From a virus: a stretch of 35,076 nucleotides of DNA. The notes below the pieces were generated by a model. The model did not search any database, was not told the origin of the DNA, and worked only from the letters and a program-made list of their open reading frames with translations. Position 1 is the stretch's first letter. The number at the start of each line of letters is the position of its first letter. The stretch lies in IMG/VR virus record IMGVR_UViG_3300007363_000055, positions 1 through 35,076 of that record. The stretch is one strand, 5' to 3'. Shown piece by piece: positions 3,334 through 35,076 of this stretch. The position numbers were made by a program, and so were the translations under genes.

Positions 3334-5775
3334 TTAAGCTACTTCTAACCCTTGTCTTTCTTTCAAAGAAAGTATTTTAGAATTGTGTTGCTGTAAAATA
3401 GATTTAGGTATATGGCAGTCTGCTCTTTTTCCATTGAAAGTTACTTCTACTCCATTTAAAATAAACTTACCATCACGAACTTCTATTTGAGCATTCTTTA
3501 CATTATCTTGATTTGATATAGAATCTCTTACTGATTGAAGATATTTATTTTGTTCTCCAACATACATAGTTCTATTTTTAGCGTCTATTACTGTAAGCAT
3601 TGAGTTGTCAGCGGCACCGCCAGCAAATAAAGCCAAAGCTACCACAAATCCTAGACCTTTTCTTCTTTGTTTTAAATCTGGAGATCCATCTTCAGTTTTA
3701 GCATCAACTAACTGTTGAATTCTTCTTTTCTGTATTACAGAAGCAATTGTTGCACATACTTTTTCCCAGTCTTGCTCATCAGAAAATTTAATCATTTTTT
3801 CTATTTCTATTATTGCATTTTGAGTTAACCCTTTAAATATATCATTTTTTCTAAAATAATCTAAAGTAGACTTTAAAAATTCTTCTCTCATTTTTGCTGT
3901 TTGAAAAACTCTAACTCCACCTTTCTGAGTAAAATATTTTACTTCCTTTGGAATTTTTTTCATAATATCTAATTCAGATTGAAATCTTGATAATTCTTCT
4001 TTAACTAAATTTAAATCTTGTTCGGTAACCCCAGATTCTTTCATCATTTTTTTTTGTCTTTCAACATCAGCGCGGCATCTAGGAGAATCTTTAACTACTT
4101 TGCCACAATAGGTTCCGTCAATTACTGCAGTAATATTTGATTGGCTTGCCTGACCAAGGTCAATTGATTCAGCTTCATTAGAAAATTTTAAACTATCACC
4201 TATTAAATATACTTTGGATAAATTTTTACAATCTGTCCCATCACATTCTATTTCAGAAATATCTCTCTCTATAATCATTTTTTCTGCAGTGGCTTGGTCA
4301 AATCCCATGCTTAGTAAAGCTTTTACGGCAGACTCTTTTGTAGAATACACTTCAAGCATATCTGCTTTTCTACCTAATCCTACAGTATGCGCAGATTTCA
4401 TAACATGCATGGGCCGTCTAATATCTACTCCCATATATGCCATTCTACTCATTACTCTTGAGAATCTTTCCATAGCTTGTTGAGCATTAGCCATTTTCCC
4501 ATTTCCAAAAGCATTTACTACTGTTTGAATAAAAAACATGCTTAAGTTATCATCTAAATCCATAGACACAGCGCCCTCTGTGTTATATTGATCTATCAAA
4601 CCTTGAAATGCTTCCATTAATTTATCTTGATTTTGTATCCATCTTTCAAAAAGGTCTGATATTTTTTTATTGCATCTATTTGATTCTGGACTATCTTGTT
4701 GTAAATTTCTGCATCTAGCATGTAAAATTACAGCGTTTCTCAAGTCTTCAAAAAAGAAACCTCTAATTGTTGCTCCCCTACCTCCAATACCATTTCCATT
4801 CCTTAAGAAGTTTCCATGATCTGTTTCTAGTTCTAATTGTTTTTCAGTTCCAGGATCTTCATGTAATGAAATCATTCCATTTATTAATGAAGTAATGTAT
4901 TGACTGTCTTCATGGAAAAGCATTCCTTGCCCAGTTATGGGATCTCTAATTATTATTTGACCTACTTTACTTATGCTTACTGATTGTTTAAGATATTGAA
5001 CATCTTCCAAAGTTAATTTTTCTTTAGATAGTATTTTAAATATTTCTTGAAAAATTTTAGATACATTTCTTTTGATGTGGGTTATATCTTGATCATTTCT
5101 AGTTGGAACACATATGGATTCATTTTCATCGCAAGACTCAATAACATAACTACTTTGAGCTATGGTTCTAGCTAAGTCTCCTGAGTTTCCTGTATTGAGA
5201 AGTCTTGCATGGGCACCCCTAAGAATTTTGCATTTTGTTTTATCTATTTTACATATTTTTTCAACAGTTTTATTGTATTCTATTTCTGATAAAAACTCAT
5301 GGGAGTCTAAAAATTCATATGTTTTTTTTGGTTGTTCTTCTACTTTATCTTGTTTTGGATTACTTGGATCTAATTTTAGTTGTCCATTAGCATCTTGATT
5401 TTGTTCACCACCTGTAGCTCCTTGAGATGATTGTCCTCCTTGTGCAGCTTGATCTAATAATCTTGCAAACTCATCTTCATCTGCTGCAGTTTTTATTCCA
5501 TATTCTCTTCCATATCTTGGTCCTGGAAAACCCGTAAAAACTACAACGCCCTTACCATTTATAGTTACATACGCAGGAGGTAATTGAGTTACTGGGATTT
5601 GTCGGCCATTTGATGTTTTTGCATTCGCAATATATTTTTTAGCAGCATACACAGCTTGAGGAGATGGGGGCTGGGATAATCTTCTTTTCCCGCCCGATCT
5701 ATCGCGCTCTAACAATCTGAGACTTCTATTTTTTAACTGACTGTAGCTTTCTAATAATTTATAAAAGTAATTCAT
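3334..5775 (-). CDS. 813-residue candidate internal head protein with T4-like capsid-targeting N-terminus
   Basis: I do not recognise the family. The N-terminus MNYFYKLLES looks like the 10-residue capsid-targeting sequences of T4 internal proteins (MKTYQEFIAE, cut by gp21 after Glu); L7-L8-E9 fits the (L/I)-x-E cleavage rule. Residues 110-150 are a low-complexity Gln/Gly/Ser/Lys linker. Cysteines come mainly as close pairs: 175/182, 215/222, 355/368, 511/516 and 557/567. Residues 707-721 (GLGFVVALALFAGGA) form a short hydrophobic stretch that might insert in a membrane. Residues 690-706 are basic. The gene stands alone behind a terminator-like palindrome, with no Shine-Dalgarno and a TATAAT only 6 bases before the ATG. 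An injected protein is the best inference. A structural or enzymatic virion protein of another kind is possible. Confidence 0.6.
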   Translation of the reverse strand: MNYFYKLLESYSQLKNRSLRLLERDRSGGKRRLSQPPSPQAVYAAKKYIANAKTSNGRQIPVTQLPPAYVTINGKGVVVFTGFPGPRYGREYGIKTAADEDEFARLLDQAAQGGQSSQGATGGEQNQDANGQLKLDPSNPKQDKVEEQPKKTYEFLDSHEFLSEIEYNKTVEKICKIDKTKCKILRGAHARLLNTGNSGDLARTIAQSSYVIESCDENESICVPTRNDQDITHIKRNVSKIFQEIFKILSKEKLTLEDVQYLKQSVSISKVGQIIIRDPITGQGMLFHEDSQYITSLINGMISLHEDPGTEKQLELETDHGNFLRNGNGIGGRGATIRGFFFEDLRNAVILHARCRNLQQDSPESNRCNKKISDLFERWIQNQDKLMEAFQGLIDQYNTEGAVSMDLDDNLSMFFIQTVVNAFGNGKMANAQQAMERFSRVMSRMAYMGVDIRRPMHVMKSAHTVGLGRKADMLEVYSTKESAVKALLSMGFDQATAEKMIIERDISEIECDGTDCKNLSKVYLIGDSLKFSNEAESIDLGQASQSNITAVIDGTYCGKVVKDSPRCRADVERQKKMMKESGVTEQDLNLVKEELSRFQSELDIMKKIPKEVKYFTQKGGVRVFQTAKMREEFLKSTLDYFRKNDIFKGLTQNAIIEIEKMIKFSDEQDWEKVCATIASVIQKRRIQQLVDAKTEDGSPDLKQRRKGLGFVVALALFAGGAADNSMLTVIDAKNRTMYVGEQNKYLQSVRDSISNQDNVKNAQIEVRDGKFILNGVEVTFNGKRADCHIPKSILQQHNSKILSLKERQGLEVA

Positions 5776-15120: not shown

Positions 15121-15567
15121 TCACTTCTTTTTTCCAGCCATTAAAGCTTTCATCTTCTTAGCTTGGCCTTTAGAATCCTTCATCTTAGCTCCGGTTCCAC
15201 AGGATTCCTCATCTAAATCTTCACCGACTTCCTCTTCATCCTGGTCGTCACTATCAATGTCTTCCTCGATGGACTCTAACTCCTCGTCGGTGATATCGTT
15301 CATCTCATTGATAATACCAAGCATCATCTCAATGTGCTCGGTTAACTTCTCATCGGAAATGTCATTTTCCAAGGTTGACTCACAAAGAGGGCAAGTATGA
15401 GTTTCCTCAGTTACAACCTCCTCCTGGGAATCATCGTCATCTGACTGAACTTCTGACCCAACGTCTTCTTGAACCTGAGTATCTTCCTTTAAAGAAACTC
15501 CTGACTTACCCCAGAATGACTGGGATATTAGCTGATCAACTTCCTCTTTGAGGACTTCTTTTTTCAT
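15121..15567 (-). CDS. Very acidic head-region protein with CPLC knuckle, candidate prohead core
   Basis: This 148-residue protein is dominated by Asp and Glu (for example DDDDSQEE at 43-50 and most of residues 93-121) and ends in a basic KKMKALMAGKKK tail. C59-P-L-C62 is half of a zinc-ribbon-like pair, with only C123 as a further cysteine, so metal binding would need a partner or dimer. It begins the head operon, with AAAGGA at 15580-15575 and suitable spacing. T4 gene 67, in the comparable place, encodes a small acidic prohead core protein; the role here is inferred from charge and position only. Confidence 0.6.
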   Translation of the reverse strand: MKKEVLKEEVDQLISQSFWGKSGVSLKEDTQVQEDVGSEVQSDDDDSQEEVVTEETHTCPLCESTLENDISDEKLTEHIEMMLGIINEMNDITDEELESIEEDIDSDDQDEEEVGEDLDEESCGTGAKMKDSKGQAKKMKALMAGKKK

Positions 15568-15643: not shown

Positions 15644-15952
15644 TTAATTATTAATGAATACAAAACTAATTCCCGGATTATTAGCTGTATCCCCACAACT
15701 TAAATTATCTCCTTGTCTTGTTAATGCTTTATCTTGGACAAAAACATTAGGAGAGCCCCTACTTGCTGTAGCTATGTGAACTGGATTAGGGGGCGGGCAG
15801 AATGGTGGGACAATATGAGGATCATAAGTATCCCCAACTAAAACAACTAAATTATTAGCAGCAAAAACGTTTGATTGAGTTGGATTAGAGCATCTAACTG
15901 GTAAATGGCAATGTCCTGTGGATGGTGTGATTGAATTAATAATAAGGGGCAT
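15644..15952 (-). CDS. PAAR-type tail spike tip protein
   Basis: The 102-residue protein shows the PAAR pattern in its second half: RGSPNVFVQDKALTRQGDNLSCGD (65-88, shown in part as PNVFVQDKALTRQGD) matches 'GS..VfvnGkpaaR.GD...cG'. The first half has the 'NVFAANNLVVLVGDTYD' strand pair and several Cys/His residues (H14, H16, C21, C52, H59, C86) that could bind the metal ion found in PAAR tips. PAAR proteins form the sharp point of the central spike in contractile tails. It overlaps the upstream 1071-residue gene by 17 bases and ends the tail operon. Confidence 0.8.
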   Translation of the reverse strand: MPLIINSITPSTGHCHLPVRCSNPTQSNVFAANNLVVLVGDTYDPHIVPPFCPPPNPVHIATASRGSPNVFVQDKALTRQGDNLSCGDTANNPGISFVFINN

Positions 15953-18900
15953 TTTCTCTATCTTGTTCCTTTATATATATTATATCATTTTCTACTGGAT
16001 CTACCAATATACCTGTTTCAGTAATATTAGGACTAGATAATACATCTCTAATTGGTATATCTTTAAATCCATTTGCTAAATCATTAGTAAACTGGGATTG
16101 ATTTGATAATATAAACTTTCCAATTTGATTAGAATTAAGTCTTCTATAAACATCCCACCAAGTTAATTCTTCTGGGTTATATAAAGTTTTTAATTTATCT
16201 ATTAAATTTATTATCACTGATTCTGCCGACCCAGTTCTAGTTGATGAGGGTGGTTGAATATTTGAATATGAATTGGAATAGTAATAAGATTTTGAAAACA
16301 AATTAGAACTTGGATTATACTCATAAATTATACCTTGTGGATCTATATCATTATACTTTTCATATAATCCATAATAATAAGTTCCAAGTTCATCATAAAT
16401 TAATTTTTCATCTAGTGGTGGGGTTAATATGTCTTTTCTGCTTACATCAATATTAGGGACCATTTTTAATAATCTAACAATATTTGAAGAATTATAATTA
16501 ATTAATTCAGAGTAAGCATGATAGGGATTATGGGAAGATCCTAGTCCTGGAGTTATTATTAATCCAAAAGGAATATTTCTTGTTAATATAGATTGATCAT
16601 CTGTTCTATTTATTTGATAGTTCTTAAAATTAACATCATATTGTTTATACTCTATAGAACTAGTATCTCTTAAATAATGAATAATTGGATCATCATAATT
16701 TATATTTAATTTAGAAGTATTTAAACTATAGTTTCTAGCATGTAGGATTGCTTCATCCTTGGATAGCAATCTAAATGTTGCTGTAGTTAAATTTACAAGA
16801 GAATTATTAGTTGTATTATCTTCTAAAGTATCTAAGTCTAATGCAAAATACATAACACTTACATCTGCTGAAGGGTTATAATCAGTAGATAATTCATGCC
16901 CTGATAAATTTGAGGATACTGTTAAAGTGGCAGCATTATCAAAATTTAATATTCTTAATACATTATCTCTTAATACAGGTGGTATAAAAAATGATGCTGA
17001 AGAATCATTTTGGCTAATAACAGGGGACTCAGTTCCAGAAAAATCTATAGCTGAAATATAATATCCTGCACCATCCCCAAGATCCAATACGTCAAAAGTG
17101 GTGCTTAAAGTTAAATCACCATCTAAAGACATAGTTGGGACTCCATGATCAGTTAAAGGTAGCGTTGAATACTCTCCAGATAAATCTACAGTTTGTAGTT
17201 TAACATTAATATCAGTGTTTAGTCTTCTTTGTCTTTTTATTTGATTCTTTTCATACTGATTCATATATGAGGAATAATCAGATGAAGATGCACCATTTGA
17301 TATTAAACCTAATGCAGCCCTGGTAACTTCGTCATAATCACTATTTTGAGAATACCTAATAGGATTATCCTCGGCTTGTCTTAGCTCTAAAGATAAATAA
17401 TAGTTAGAATCAAATTCTGATATCCTGCCAGACAATAAAAGTGATTGAATAATATTTAAAAAATTACTGAGTGGGACAGCTTGTCCACCAAAATCATTTA
17501 TGTTATTAAAAGCTTTTAACAAATCTGTATTTAAACTAATAGCAATTTTATCTTGAGTTAGATTTGATATTGCAACATCACTCCAAGGCAAAGGAGAATT
17601 ATCTTGTCTATCTATAAAATGTTTTACTTCTTTTGTTATTACAGTATTAAATACATTTAAATATTGATCATTTTGAACTAATTCAACTTTAGTGTTTACT
17701 GGGTAAGTAAAGAAGTTATATATTCTATCATACAAACCCTGTTCTCTGTAAGTTGTTGGACCTTCATCAACTGAGTTATCAACTATAGTGTCATCTATTA
17801 ATACTATTTCTTCCACTTGTTTAGTTGGTATATTACTTATTAAATTACTTATAAGAGAGTCAGTAGTTACTATAACAGAATTTGAAATAAATCTTTGATT
17901 ATTCCCAGACATCCTTAATTGTTCAGGGTTAAATCTACCGCCACCGCCTCCACCACCTCCTGGGGGAATTTCAGTTCCAGGAAATACATTTGATAATCCA
18001 GTTTGTTCACTTACTGGAGTATTATTTTCTTCCGTCACTGGATTGCCTACGGGCGTAGTCCCCCCGGTGCTTTGTCCATAGCATTCATTAGATTCATATG
18101 ATGGGCATTGATCTGCGCAGTTTTGCCTACTAGTATAAACGCACCCTGCTTGACTGCTCCAAGTTGGATCACTTAATACCCAAGTTCCATTATTATTTAC
18201 ACACTCAATACATCCATGCAAATAAATATTACCATTTTGACCTTCAGGACAAGAAACAACTTTTTGAGCACATGCAAATCTTTGTTCTACACCAGTACCA
18301 CCTGTTGGAGTGACTGGATCACAAAGTTCTGGATCTTCTTGAACAACATAAGGGCATGTATTATCGCAGTCTCGTTTAAATTGAAAGCATCCATCTCCCG
18401 GACGACTAATACTTAAATTACAATCTTGAACACATTCCTGGATAAATCCATAACGAGTTCCATTTTGACAAAATAAGTCTGTTGTATTACATCTCCACCC
18501 ATCTTCAATTACAGCAGTGGCTATACCGCCACCTGTTGTAGGACCCCTTGGCGTTCTAACACAATCCTCGTATTGAGATGTTAGACATACTTCCTGACAA
18601 TCATCTATTTTTTGATAAATACAATCAGGATCTGATGGCATTATTCTACAGGGTTCACATCTTCTTATTATTTCTTTTATTGGTAATCCAGTAGTTGGAT
18701 CAATTTCTGATACACCTGGAATAGGTGCGGTCCCATAAGGACATAATATCTTTTCTTCTACACACTTAAATCCATCTTGAACTTGGGGTATTGGGCATGG
18801 ATAATCTATATTCAGACAGTGGATTTGACAAAGTTCTTTTCTATGATAAATACACTCAGGTGGCCAAGATCCTGCCAAAGTAGTATTACATTCAATACAT

Positions 18901-19151
18901 CTAAATACACGACTTGAAATTACGTCTAAGTTTGGTGGGGGGCAAGTTATAGTTCCTCTAAATCTACATGCCCATCTCCTCTCTGACCCAGGACCCCTAG
19001 GATCATCTGGTGCTGGTGGAAATGGTGGCCTTGGTATTTTTTTTGGAGGTGGAATATAGATTGGAGGAACTGTATTTACAGTGCCCCCGGTAACAGGTCT
19101 TCGACCAGGGAGAAACTCTCCACAATTAAACCTATTACTAATTCTAGGCAT
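15936..19151 (-). CDS. 1071-residue tail/baseplate protein with four tandem 8-cysteine repeats
   Basis: I do not recognise the family. After a proline-rich leader (residues 28-47) come four repeats at W60-C119, F128-C197, W219-C277 and F292-C357, each with eight cysteines in the order [W/F]-x-C, C, C-x2/3-C, C-x6/7-C-x3-C, C. Then follow a Gly/Thr linker, a run of eight glycines (398-405) that looks like a hinge, and a cysteine-free region of about 660 residues rich in Asn, Ser and Tyr, of structural-protein type. There is no signal peptide, so the repeats would be oxidised only after lysis, or else bind metal. The gene sits between a fibre-like gene and the PAAR tip and overlaps the tip gene by 17 bases. 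It may be a baseplate-associated or host-contact protein. Confidence 0.75.
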   Translation of the reverse strand: MPRISNRFNCGEFLPGRRPVTGGTVNTVPPIYIPPPKKIPRPPFPPAPDDPRGPGSERRWACRFRGTITCPPPNLDVISSRVFRCIECNTTLAGSWPPECIYHRKELCQIHCLNIDYPCPIPQVQDGFKCVEEKILCPYGTAPIPGVSEIDPTTGLPIKEIIRRCEPCRIMPSDPDCIYQKIDDCQEVCLTSQYEDCVRTPRGPTTGGGIATAVIEDGWRCNTTDLFCQNGTRYGFIQECVQDCNLSISRPGDGCFQFKRDCDNTCPYVVQEDPELCDPVTPTGGTGVEQRFACAQKVVSCPEGQNGNIYLHGCIECVNNNGTWVLSDPTWSSQAGCVYTSRQNCADQCPSYESNECYGQSTGGTTPVGNPVTEENNTPVSEQTGLSNVFPGTEIPPGGGGGGGGRFNPEQLRMSGNNQRFISNSVIVTTDSLISNLISNIPTKQVEEIVLIDDTIVDNSVDEGPTTYREQGLYDRIYNFFTYPVNTKVELVQNDQYLNVFNTVITKEVKHFIDRQDNSPLPWSDVAISNLTQDKIAISLNTDLLKAFNNINDFGGQAVPLSNFLNIIQSLLLSGRISEFDSNYYLSLELRQAEDNPIRYSQNSDYDEVTRAALGLISNGASSSDYSSYMNQYEKNQIKRQRRLNTDINVKLQTVDLSGEYSTLPLTDHGVPTMSLDGDLTLSTTFDVLDLGDGAGYYISAIDFSGTESPVISQNDSSASFFIPPVLRDNVLRILNFDNAATLTVSSNLSGHELSTDYNPSADVSVMYFALDLDTLEDNTTNNSLVNLTTATFRLLSKDEAILHARNYSLNTSKLNINYDDPIIHYLRDTSSIEYKQYDVNFKNYQINRTDDQSILTRNIPFGLIITPGLGSSHNPYHAYSELINYNSSNIVRLLKMVPNIDVSRKDILTPPLDEKLIYDELGTYYYGLYEKYNDIDPQGIIYEYNPSSNLFSKSYYYSNSYSNIQPPSSTRTGSAESVIINLIDKLKTLYNPEELTWWDVYRRLNSNQIGKFILSNQSQFTNDLANGFKDIPIRDVLSSPNITETGILVDPVENDIIYIKEQDRENAPYY
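18081..18974 (-). repeat. Coding repeats: four tandem 8-cysteine modules
   Basis: The modules span 18974-18795, 18770-18561, 18497-18321 and 18278-18081. Each has the spacing W/F-x-C-(6-7)-C-(11-27)-C-(2-3)-C-(8-19)-C-(6-7)-C-3-C-(6-10)-C; the fixed C-x3-C and the C-x6/7-C before it are the best conserved. The DNA is well diverged between units, so these are old protein repeats, not recent duplications. Confidence 0.85.
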
Positions 19152-19152
19152 A

Positions 19153-21528
19153 CTAAGCTAGTGTTAAAGTTGGATTATCGGCGTTAAGATTTAAATTTAA
19201 TCCATTATAATTTACTGGATACCCAGTTATTTTAAATGTCACTGAAGGATAAATAGCAATTCCTGCGCTACCTTCGCCATTAAATACAGTTTGATTATAA
19301 TCCCCTCTTCCACCAGCATTAGTTATTCCATCAGTCATAACTAAGAACCCGGCATAATTACTACCATTTCTTCTTGAGTTTGGTAAATTAATTGAAGTAG
19401 AATTATTTATATTCTCTATGATTTCTTCTTTTCCATTTCCGAAATTATAATCACTGGCAACCCAAGCTACGTAAATGGTAAAATAGTTATATGATTTTTC
19501 TACCCAAACTGAATTAGTTCCTGCCGTAGTTATGGATCTTTCCGCTTGCGCCCTGCATCCTAGGGGAGCACAATTCCATAGCTGGACATCAACATGGTAG
19601 TCGTTCATCCAAGGAATAGATCCTCTATTAAAGTATATTTTCTTTTTAACAAAGAACACACAAGTGTGTCCGGTTTTACCAGTTATATTGTCAGTTCCTA
19701 GTCTCTCTAATCTAGTTGTTAATTCCTTATTTTGATAAGGAGCAAACTCTACTGCAGTATTAGCATAAGTAGGTCTCACATTTCCATATCCTCCAGATTG
19801 ATAAACATTCATGTAATCATTTGGAAATGATCCTTGCTCACTTAAATTGTTAGCTACAACCCAAGCACCAATATCCCAATCTGGGAAATCTGGGATTTCA
19901 ATTCCTAATGGTAATCCAAATCTTGATATTACTTCAGACTTTAATCTTTCTTTTGTTAAATTTCCTTGAGTGAGTCTAAGTTCAATATATCTTGCTAATG
20001 TTCCCTCTACACCAAAGTTATATCCACCTTTTACGTATCCCGCTCCAACAACTCTAGGCGTAGTTTGAACAGTAACTGTATTTTGAATAGAATTTAATCT
20101 AGCTTGAATGGCTTGATAACTTCTCTTTACTTCAAAGTCTAATTCAGCTTGAGTAACAACTGGATTGGCTAAAGAGGGCGCAGGGATAGCAGCAGCCAAC
20201 CCAGCCCTCTCATTATAAGTAAGTTCAGTAGTTCTAAAGAAAGGTCTTATATCAATAATATCATTGTTTGAAATTACAGACAAACTTTGATTATTTTCAT
20301 TAACAGCAGCACCAGCCTTAACTACAATATAAGCTAACGGTAATACTGTTTGTCCTACTAATGCAAAATGATTATCCCTTAAATTAATATCTAACATTGG
20401 AGCTATGTTCATTAAATCATCTGGTGCTGGGAATGATCCATGAACGTTAGATAACGAGAATCCATTATTAACTGATAAAGAATCTCCAACAAATGCAAGC
20501 ATTTTTGAAGTTCCGACTTGATCTATTAAATCAACTTGCTTAATTGCAGATCTAATATCATTAGAAGTTTTTCTAAAGTCTACACCTAACCCAGCACCAT
20601 AAACTATACCAAGCTCTGGTTTAGTTATTGTAGTTGGTTGAGAGAACTCAGTGAACTTTGCTATAGTTGTTGAGCTAGCATCAACTGGTTTTGAATAAAT
20701 AAATAATAAATCTATTCTTTGATTAGCTCCTGATATTAATTGCTTAACACCGTTTTCGTCAATATAGAAAAAATCTTCAGCATTAAATGGAGGTATTTCT
20801 AAAGAAGTTTCTTCTGATAAATCTACGACAGCAGTTCTAGCAACACCTCTCCATCGTTTTATAAATGCTGTCTCAGCATTGCCTAATGAGGCAAAACCAG
20901 TAAGAGCATCACCATCTTCATATTGTTTTATAATATATTCAGTTACTTCAGTATCTCCAGGAAAAAGAACTCCTTGAGCTACAGGTAATGGAGAAACACC
21001 AGTTGGAAAAGTTGTACCAAAACCTAGATTATATATTTCAGATAAATATTGGCTGGCTCTTCCTGGGCTGTATGCTGGCCAAGCTAAAACTCTCTCTGAT
21101 AATCCATTCAAATCTAAGTTCGATAACTGATTTTTAAATTTTTCAAGAACTACATCTAAATAAGCTCCATTACTTCCTTCTGCTGCCCAAGTATTGTATT
21201 CATTTATATTTTGACCTAATAAATTTCTTATTTTTTGTAAAGGTGTTATGCTATAGGCATCATTTATTCTTGCAATAAATCTTCCTGGTTTTACTTTTAC
21301 AACATTATCAGTTCCTGTTGAATAAGGTTTTAATTCAGAAAAACCTGATCTATCTATTTCATCAATTTTTAAACCATTAGTAATTTGATCTTTTAGCCAA
21401 AGATCATTTTCCTGTAATTGTTTTAAAGGTATATTTTCAACTTCAAAATATATTGGGTCATTAGCTTTAAAATATCTTATAGGGTCAGTAAATCTATAAT
21501 TACTGTCTTTATATTTAATTGTTACCAT
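19153..21528 (-). CDS. 791-residue baseplate or fibre protein with 'IPLKQLQEN' motif
   Basis: Residues 28-49 (FEVENIPLKQLQENDLWLKDQ in part) match a short motif also found at residues 38-56 of the upstream beta-helix protein (NMPIHDLEERTFYLWEQ), and I recall this motif in structural proteins of other myoviruses. It may be a common attachment element. The remainder is mixed, with TPRVVGAGYVKGGYNFGVEG and a long NWDIGAWVVANNL-type region, ending in a Gly/Asn/Ser-rich beta segment (690-791). No enzyme motif is seen. Its start is inside a TAATG junction with the upstream gene, and the next start follows 1 base after its stop, so it belongs to the baseplate/tail fibre set. Confidence 0.65.
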   Translation of the reverse strand: MVTIKYKDSNYRFTDPIRYFKANDPIYFEVENIPLKQLQENDLWLKDQITNGLKIDEIDRSGFSELKPYSTGTDNVVKVKPGRFIARINDAYSITPLQKIRNLLGQNINEYNTWAAEGSNGAYLDVVLEKFKNQLSNLDLNGLSERVLAWPAYSPGRASQYLSEIYNLGFGTTFPTGVSPLPVAQGVLFPGDTEVTEYIIKQYEDGDALTGFASLGNAETAFIKRWRGVARTAVVDLSEETSLEIPPFNAEDFFYIDENGVKQLISGANQRIDLLFIYSKPVDASSTTIAKFTEFSQPTTITKPELGIVYGAGLGVDFRKTSNDIRSAIKQVDLIDQVGTSKMLAFVGDSLSVNNGFSLSNVHGSFPAPDDLMNIAPMLDINLRDNHFALVGQTVLPLAYIVVKAGAAVNENNQSLSVISNNDIIDIRPFFRTTELTYNERAGLAAAIPAPSLANPVVTQAELDFEVKRSYQAIQARLNSIQNTVTVQTTPRVVGAGYVKGGYNFGVEGTLARYIELRLTQGNLTKERLKSEVISRFGLPLGIEIPDFPDWDIGAWVVANNLSEQGSFPNDYMNVYQSGGYGNVRPTYANTAVEFAPYQNKELTTRLERLGTDNITGKTGHTCVFFVKKKIYFNRGSIPWMNDYHVDVQLWNCAPLGCRAQAERSITTAGTNSVWVEKSYNYFTIYVAWVASDYNFGNGKEEIIENINNSTSINLPNSRRNGSNYAGFLVMTDGITNAGGRGDYNQTVFNGEGSAGIAIYPSVTFKITGYPVNYNGLNLNLNADNPTLTLA

Positions 21529-33038: not shown

Positions 33039-35076
33039 TTAAAGTAGTAACGTGTCTATATTTTTAAAGAATTCTTTTTGTGCCCTGTAGTTAGTGGCAA
33101 CCTCATCGGAACTTAATGGCTTTTTATATAATTTAAAACTACCTAAATAGCCTTTTAATCCACTTATGATTCCGCCATACTTACCACCCATAAAGTTTCC
33201 ATACTGAGACATCCCGTCAGTATAGCCACCACCAACTATCCAAGGAGTAAAGTAAGTATTTAATTTTGGACCTGATTTCAAAGAGTTTGGTGCTAAGGAA
33301 CCTACAGTGGTAGATTTATATTCAAAGCTATTACCTTTCTTAAATGAGGGTATCTTAGGCATCTCATAAGGCTCAACACCAAAGATATTAGATAAAGATG
33401 AGGTTGTAGTATTAACACCATCTAAGTAAAACCTAACCTGATCATTATTTGGATCAAACGTAACACTTATATGGCAGAAGGTATTACCACAAGCTGAGTA
33501 TGCATTACCATTAAATCTATCGTATATATTCTGAACCATGCAGTGATAAGTAGTTCCAGAATTACAGTTTAAATAATCTTTAAAGTTTCTATTAATAAAT
33601 CCTGCAGATGAAACACTTAGAGATTGAGTTGGAGCTAAGAAGAAAGAAATATTTGAACTTGGATTTAAAGAGCTATCATTGCTAGGAGCTTCAGAACTTA
33701 CCAGTCTTCTATCTCTGGTAAATCCCATCACAAATCCATTAACAACATTATCACTAAAATTAAAGAACTTAGCGTCATCGTTTGTTGATGAACTCAGGTT
33801 TCCAGTTACACCAACATTTTCATTTGCTAAAATTAATCTATACAATCCAGAAACGTTAGTTCCACCACCAAAGCCAGCATCGGGATCATTAAACTTAGGT
33901 AAGTGAACCCAGAAGTCTATAGTAGCTCCGTTTTTGTGGTATAATAAATCGTTGAAATCTGCCTCATCTGGCAACTTAACATAAGAACCTAAAGCACTTG
34001 GATACCTAGCATCGGTAGTTGAATGTCTAGTTATTCCGCTTAAATAAGCAATACCTAATCCCTTACTAAATACATCCTGTATATTATTTGCAACTAATTG
34101 CCCATAACCTAAGTTAGTTTCAGATGCATAATTTCTTAAAAGGTTAGCAGTTGAACTTGGAGTTTCAATATTAGTTTCTAAGAAGTTATACATTGCATAG
34201 AGAGAATCATTAACAACCTCATCAGTTATTTCGTAAGTCTGGGCAGACACTGAGTTTACAGTATTACCCTCGCGTAGGATTGCGCCCTCTCCAATATCAG
34301 TCAATATTAGATGGTCAATTACAGTATTCTTACTATGCTCTGGAGCTATTACGTAAGTCGGTGCAGTTATAGGTAATACACTACCTCTAACATCATCCTG
34401 AGTAATAACTATTGATTTTTGTTTTTGAATATCTAAAGAAATATTCAAACCTTCCAAGTAAGAGAAATCATTTAATGGGACTTCTCCAGGATTATATAAA
34501 ATTTTATTTTTGTATATTCCCGGTATTTTTATAGCTAATTCAATTTGCTTCTTTCTCTTATTTATCTTCTCTTGATGGTTTGCATTCTCAGATATCAACG
34601 CTTGCTTGTGATTATAAATTACTGACTGTGGCTGGCTGTTAACCTCAAGTTGGGTAATTTGAGCAGATAGATCGTAAATTCTTTTATTTCTTTCTCCGAT
34701 CAAATCTTGTAAATAACCATCTTTATTATAATAAGCTTGTAACGATACTGAGTTGTCAATTATGTTTGGATCTAATATTGTATTAAAATATAAATTTAGA
34801 TCTTTTGTAGAGAATCCTTTACCTCTTCCACCCAAGTTAGGATCTTGCTCAAACTTCCACCTATCCCCAGGATCTATTTGTTTATTTCTTACATTAAGTT
34901 CTAACAGTGCAGGGTATAGCCCACTAACTTGGGAATCATAATACAGCCCGTCTTTTGAGAATACAAACTGCCCGGTCTTAGATTTAGGTGGACCATATAC
35001 AAGTCTAAATACCTCAGATTCCATACCTGCTTGCATTCCACTAGCGTCTCTACCGTAGACACTTCTAATAGTGTTA
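33039..35076 (-). CDS. LamG/concanavalin-like domain virion protein, 5' end cut by the window edge
   Basis: An ATG occurs at 35036, but the frame stays open to the window edge and encodes a sensible continuation (NTIRSVYGRDASG just before that Met), so the gene very likely starts outside. Residues about 107-170 (counted from that Met) form a coiled coil (IGERNKRIYDLSAQITQLEV). Residues about 350-655 look like a LamG-type lectin fold: GATIDFWVHLPKF, HISVTFDP and VRFYLDG, closing with YLGSFKLYKKPLSSDEV, which is typical of the family's last strand and 'LS..Ei' ending. It is probably a carbohydrate-binding tail or fibre component. A 37-base gap with a CACTATATATAAT sequence precedes gp25. Confidence 0.7.
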   Translation of the reverse strand, partial: NTIRSVYGRDASGMQAGMESEVFRLVYGPPKSKTGQFVFSKDGLYYDSQVSGLYPALLELNVRNKQIDPGDRWKFEQDPNLGGRGKGFSTKDLNLYFNTILDPNIIDNSVSLQAYYNKDGYLQDLIGERNKRIYDLSAQITQLEVNSQPQSVIYNHKQALISENANHQEKINKRKKQIELAIKIPGIYKNKILYNPGEVPLNDFSYLEGLNISLDIQKQKSIVITQDDVRGSVLPITAPTYVIAPEHSKNTVIDHLILTDIGEGAILREGNTVNSVSAQTYEITDEVVNDSLYAMYNFLETNIETPSSTANLLRNYASETNLGYGQLVANNIQDVFSKGLGIAYLSGITRHSTTDARYPSALGSYVKLPDEADFNDLLYHKNGATIDFWVHLPKFNDPDAGFGGGTNVSGLYRLILANENVGVTGNLSSSTNDDAKFFNFSDNVVNGFVMGFTRDRRLVSSEAPSNDSSLNPSSNISFFLAPTQSLSVSSAGFINRNFKDYLNCNSGTTYHCMVQNIYDRFNGNAYSACGNTFCHISVTFDPNNDQVRFYLDGVNTTTSSLSNIFGVEPYEMPKIPSFKKGNSFEYKSTTVGSLAPNSLKSGPKLNTYFTPWIVGGGYTDGMSQYGNFMGGKYGGIISGLKGYLGSFKLYKKPLSSDEVATNYRAQKEFFKNIDTLLL

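Follow-up and report, generated by a model that had tools for sequence, protein, structure and literature searches.

The window, meaning the whole 35,076-nucleotide stretch of DNA that was analysed, encodes a cysteine-rich protein of 1071 residues whose gene has baseplate-type genes (gp25-, gp6- and Tail_P2_I-like) on its upstream side and, downstream, genes for a PAAR-motif protein, a prohead protease, the major capsid protein, the sheath and the tube. Genes resembling gp23, gp21, gp18, gp19, gp6 and gp25 are present (PHROG, best E-values from 1e-18 to 1e-73), the major capsid protein is approximately 31% identical to cyanophage gp23, and these matches mark the window as part of a T4-like viral genome. 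An earlier note on this DNA had described the cysteine-rich product as a phage tail protein encoded next to a PAAR tip gene. The first of these descriptions is supported by synteny with the gp25, gp6, Tail_P2_I, sheath, tube and capsid genes rather than by a homologue of known location. The PAAR neighbour is confirmed: its gene adjoins the cysteine-rich gene directly downstream with an overlap of 17 nt, scores 27.6 bits against PF05488 (cut-off 27) and 1e-15 in PHROG, and encodes a product with four cysteines and four histidines. A PAAR-type gene lies 3' of the cysteine-rich gene in the window's clade and is missing in many more distant relatives, so the link to PAAR is not obligatory.

Table 1. 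Coordinates of the cysteine-rich tail protein gene, its parts and its two neighbours in the window
Feature	Position	Strand	Remarks
Modular cysteine-rich tail protein gene	15936..19151	-	ORF, 1071 aa; syntenic homologues in dozens of viral contigs
Leader, residues 1-56	18984..19151	-	'RFNCGEFLPG' motif with lone Cys10, then proline-rich stretch
Eight-cysteine module 1, residues 59-119	18795..18977	-	Module HMM 5.7e-14; AlphaFold pLDDT 96.8
Eight-cysteine module 2, residues 127-197	18561..18773	-	Module HMM 2.2e-16
Eight-cysteine module 3, residues 218-277	18321..18500	-	Module HMM 1.3e-8
Eight-cysteine module 4, residues 291-357	18081..18281	-	Module HMM 1.1e-11
Eight-glycine run, residues 398-405	17937..17960	-	Within linker from modules to C-terminal domain
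Conserved Cys-free C-terminal domain, residues 441-1071	15939..17831	-	HMM in relatives; AlphaFold model
PAAR-motif protein	15644..15952	-	PF05488, phrog_281; start overlaps end of cysteine-rich gene
791-aa putative structural protein, FTDPIRYFKANDPIYFEVENIPLKQLQEN motif	19153..21528	-	Upstream neighbour; synteny anchor

Several other reading frames of the window, all on the minus strand, are of separate interest. Two adjacent ORFs (209-718 and 718-1743) both match the DNA polymerase family phrog_17, and the 341-aa member of the pair combines a uracil-DNA glycosylase with a PolA-type 3'-5' exonuclease (PF03167, PF01612), a combination that is unusual next to T4-like virion genes. A 665-aa ORF adjoining gp25 (33039-35036) contains a Laminin_G_3/concanavalin-A-like lectin domain (PF13385) and is a possible carbohydrate-binding tail protein. 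Between the PAAR and capsid genes lies a 148-aa protein (15121-15567) with a CxxC element ('HTCPLCES') and a weak likeness, below cut-off, to the Rad50 zinc hook; it is kept at this position in many relatives.

Of the 33 cysteines of the protein, Cys10 belongs to the leader and the other 32 fall within residues 62-357 (window 18081-18968); the 714 residues that follow module 4 are free of cysteine. The spacing C6-7C, 11-27, C2-3C, 8-19, C6-7C3C6-10C recurs four times, and none of 20,000 gap permutations fits this order equally well. Cysteine makes up 10.5% of the module region, which holds 3 histidines among 304 residues; the sheath, tube and gp6 proteins of the window are cysteine-poor (0-0.57%). 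The four ordered eight-cysteine modules, the proline-rich leader and the eight-glycine hinge described in the earlier note were all found, the proline-rich stretch at residues ~24-55. Its interval, 18081-18974, holds for the modules and leaves the leader and the Cys-free C-terminal region of ~630 residues outside.

To place the protein among known families, searches were run with the whole sequence and with its parts. Neither the whole protein, nor the modules, nor the C-terminal domain gave a significant match in Pfam, PHROGs or PDB sequences, and the modules gave none in NCBIfam, in keeping with the previous statement that the repeats could not be assigned to a known domain. The whole protein had no match among 50,697 phage records at tblastn sensitivity, records very close to the window being perhaps excluded, and a C-terminal-domain profile search of cyanophage P-SSM4 returned nothing. 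The predicted fold of the C-terminal domain matched no entry in PDB or BFVD, a result that falls short of proving a new fold, and a literature search found no paper on such modules. Judged by these sequence searches, the protein is a member of an undescribed family, with novelty relative to the libraries searched.

A scan with the protein itself gave no relative, and homologues were therefore obtained only via neighbouring genes: the capsid gene and the upstream neighbour led to the relatives, and an HMM of the C-terminal domain was applied afterwards. This HMM identifies the same gene at the same position in dozens of uncultivated viral contigs. Across 75 non-redundant N-regions the architecture is constant, consisting of a leader, a Pro/Gly-rich region with a variable set of cysteine modules (from 0 to ~10) and the conserved C-terminal domain of about 590-600 aa. 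N-region length spans 21 to 1497 residues, that of the C-terminal domain remaining near 590. Most relatives share the leader motif F-x-C-G-x3-P-G, with glycine after the cysteine in 63 of 70 and proline five residues later in 48 of 70. Cysteine accounts for 0.23% of the residues of the C-terminal domain, 4.0% of those of the N-region and 0.8% of those of other long ORFs. The cysteine-rich part and the C-terminal domain form two separate ORFs in one relative (L055), and no other kind of ORF at the relatives' loci contains the modules; five module matches outside the C-domain set are explained by this split gene (also L063 and L199) and by genes cut at contig ends (L175 and L089).

Some relatives lack modules (L031, L070, L139 and L140), one of them in an Altibacter MAG and another in a Prochlorococcus single-cell genome. 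The latter (L140, Prochlorococcus sp. AG-409-P03, contig QCKN01000003.1) is a T4-like virus contig that encodes the C-terminal domain without modules and connects the family with Prochlorococcus as a likely host; its homologue of the 791-aa neighbour matches, over a short stretch, a protein of Salmonella phage Arash annotated as 'structural protein'. In two further contigs (L010 and L034, capsid protein 73% identical), the cysteine-rich and PAAR genes are both missing at the locus, which lies between a 720-aa neighbour and a 144-aa gene, and the C-terminal domain was not found elsewhere on these contigs, which are fragments. A cellular origin of the module was also considered and rejected: the module profile, which does match the viral relatives, had no match in 292 genomes from the phylum of the Prochlorococcus SAG or in 296 genomes from the phylum of the Altibacter MAG.

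To assess how fast the modules change, the window was compared with a close relative (L004) whose capsid protein is 80% identical. Most virion proteins of the two are 60-98% identical, and the cysteine-rich protein is 72% identical in its leader, 55-56% in its C-terminal domain, 37% in modules 1-2 and 25% in modules 3-4, with five four-cysteine modules in the relative in place of modules 3 and 4. The PAAR protein and an 813-aa ORF are 32% and 33% identical, respectively. This ORF (window 3334-5775, minus strand), which lies downstream of the tail tube gene and has no family match, diverges like the cysteine-rich and PAAR proteins and is a candidate for another fast-evolving tail or host-contact protein. 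In 149 pairs of relatives with C-domain identities of 50-97%, the median identity is 59% for the C-terminal domain and 39% for the N-region. Cysteine counts differ in 100 of these pairs, and the difference is even in 88 of those. The C-terminal domains of L106 and L168 are 87% identical and their proteins have 15 and 9 cysteines; those of L109 and L102 are 82% identical, with 17 and 41 cysteines. Compared with L109 (10244-13030), the L102 gene (3374-6886) encodes several tandem copies of a different cysteine-rich module of ~90 aa, apparently the result of recent tandem duplication. These comparisons show that close relatives gain, lose and swap modules, which diverge more quickly than the virion does as a whole. 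Host-contact parts would be expected to behave in this way, and relaxed constraint on a linker would also give variation.

Cysteine numbers across the family point to the state of these residues. Beyond the leader cysteine, the count is even in 40 of 45 non-redundant proteins (p 8e-8; odd in five) and in 20 of 22 proteins of a held-out set fetched later (odd in two); control proteins from the same loci have an even count in 59 of 97. The even totals comprise 23 that are 0 mod 4 and 17 that are 2 mod 4. The cysteines of 47 modules were assigned to positions 1-8 by eye, and C1-C7, C2-C8, C3-C6, C4-C5 is the sole pairing of 105 that fits all 22 cysteine-deficient modules, a count that overstates independence, given that many modules are related by descent and the positions were hand-assigned. 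With the five distinct loss patterns alone, random loss does equally well in 40 of 20,000 trials. Among 38 held-out modules, all 14 deficient ones obey the same pairing, again the only fit of 105, and they include a new pattern in which C1 and C7 are lost together. A separate variation occurs in L181 (9076-12807), where two modules have ten cysteines rather than eight; in one of these the extra cysteines adjoin C1 and C3, as if a cross-strand disulfide had been gained pairwise. No Trx, Grx or Evr1 was found in the contigs of 21 relatives, which are fragments, and the Evr1 control gave no match anywhere.

Module 1 was modelled with AlphaFold from a 33-row alignment. Residues 5-14 and 23-32 of the model form a beta-hairpin and residues 50-56 a helix; the two hairpin strands bear C1 and C3, the helix includes C6, and C7 lies at its end, a layout with which the predicted bonds 1-7 and 3-6 are compatible. 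The C-terminal domain was modelled with a pLDDT of 86.1 and a pTM of 0.84. Because the count parity is even, the cysteines are lost pairwise and the predicted fold is compatible, disulfides are favoured over metal in the modules, and the pattern indicates that the predicted bonds lie inside modules.

The modules resemble the core of Kunitz domains. Amphibian Kunitz-like proteins (anntoxin and arenin) have two disulfides, Cys5-Cys55 and Cys30-Cys51, and lack 14-38 (PMC6274936); by cysteine-loss covariation, the predicted C1-C7 and C3-C6 bonds would be the equivalents of this pair, and, as in these proteins (PMC6274936), the module model places C-x3-C at a C-terminal helix that follows a hairpin. 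The module profile matched a single PDB sequence, anntoxin, non-significantly (E 0.13), and the four cysteines of anntoxin align to C1, C3, C6 and C7. In an hhalign comparison with a three-sequence Kunitz profile, probabilities were 5.7% for the eight-cysteine and 24.8% for the four-cysteine modules, mainly over the C-terminal helix, and one of 100 cysteine-fixed shuffles scored as high. No Kunitz match (PF00014) was obtained for 33 modules against Pfam-A at E<=0.1, and no Kunitz chain appears among the Foldseek matches or VIA rows, where such small domains are poorly detected. Module C1 differs from its Kunitz counterpart in sitting inside a hairpin strand rather than before it, and neither of the predicted extra bonds, 2-8 and 4-5, equals Kunitz 14-38. 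Given the negative Pfam and Foldseek results and the low profile support, the modules were not filed as Kunitz, and Kunitz homology is not established.

The interpretation that we favour, with moderate confidence, is that the protein is a structural component of a T4-like tail tip or baseplate whose stalk carries variable domains held by intramodular disulfides, likely for contact with a variable host surface. The computations show the family and its architecture, the pairing pattern, the module fold as predicted and the variability; we infer that the protein is in the virion at this site, that it becomes oxidised in vivo and that it binds the host. The leader and the conserved C-terminal domain of ~600 aa would be the constant parts, probably serving assembly and anchoring, and the Pro/Gly-rich stalk between them would bear a variable number of small hairpin-plus-helix domains, each closed by the four predicted bonds. 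These bonds would form on meeting oxidising conditions, probably at or after lysis, and would make the modules rugged enough for exposure at the tail tip, where they may contact the variable host surface as an adhesin or receptor-probing array. Host-surface contact is the most likely job because gain, loss and swapping of modules far outpace change in the rest of the virion, and this indirectly favours the earlier proposal of a host-contact module, as a putative contact only. Relatives without modules, and others without the gene, indicate that the modules are not essential. Disulfide-rich scaffolds serve binding in secreted proteins of animals and plants, and a more specific proposal, in which the modules form interchangeable arrays of Kunitz-like disulfide mini-proteins that are assembled reduced, oxidised on release and used as a fast-evolving surface for binding host proteins (adhesin or inhibitor), is conceivable and rather unlikely.

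Other roles for the modules were weighed against this interpretation. Metal binding, in domains of zinc-ribbon or Fe-S type, was among the earlier suggestions and is now highly improbable. CxxC pairs occur in the modules, one of 33 modules matches a Zn-ribbon model (E 0.011), and the modules adjoin the PAAR gene with its four cysteines and four histidines; both PAAR tips and certain phage hubs are known to contain metals. With a metal site, one would expect ligands to disappear in fours or histidine to replace cysteine, but the cysteines vanish pairwise under one scheme, 17 of the 40 even totals are not multiples of four, histidine is scarce and no Pfam zinc or Fe-S match was obtained. A second possibility, that the N-terminal region serves as a variable and dispensable spacer, its modules drifting and duplicating as units of stalk length and nothing but the leader and the C-terminal domain being important, would account for the range of N-region lengths beside a near-constant C-terminal domain and for the relatives without modules. 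It is, however, very unlikely, since the cysteine pairing and the hairpin and helix features are kept across very divergent sequences, which argues that module folding is under selection.

It is also unlikely, to a lesser degree, that the disulfides, like those of phage Milano, serve mainly to stabilise the particle or lock it covalently and have no part in receptor contact. Virions of Milano and 7-7-1 hold many inter-chain disulfides (PMC10811340, PMC12796354), and the conserved lone cysteine of the leader could cross-link chains. Even parity and pairwise loss, however, point to intramodular bonds, the number of modules differs between close relatives, which would be odd for a load-bearing lock, and some relatives have none. 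The earlier idea that the repeats oxidise on release and lock the particle is therefore retained in part: disulfides are well supported by sequence and oxidation on release is plausible, whereas the lock gained no specific support.

Phage tail proteins assemble in the reducing cytoplasm, and reliance on disulfide-stabilised mini-domains is not expected of them. If the favoured interpretation is true, a family that is widespread in environmental T4-like viruses, with no match detected in isolated phages, would provide a new host-recognition scaffold with a disulfide map predicted from sequence alone, and the timing of disulfide formation in phages would become testable. The gene shares its baseplate-region position with the tail fibre and baseplate proteins of T4-like phages near gp6-gp12, and its leader, modules and C-terminal domain have no sequence or fold match to any T4 protein. 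The closest parallels are the Agrobacterium phages Milano and 7-7-1, which have contractile tails and disulfides in structural proteins despite cytoplasmic assembly (PMC10811340, PMC12796354), as is predicted here; in Milano the disulfides are present in the particle outside the cell, and the phage has to cope with them when it infects (PMC10811340). In these phages the cysteines are scattered over sheath, baseplate and capsid proteins (2.1% cysteine in Milano structural proteins) and form many inter-chain bonds, whereas the protein described here concentrates them in tandem domains of a single chain, in a far more cysteine-rich module region where the bonds are implied to be intramodular.
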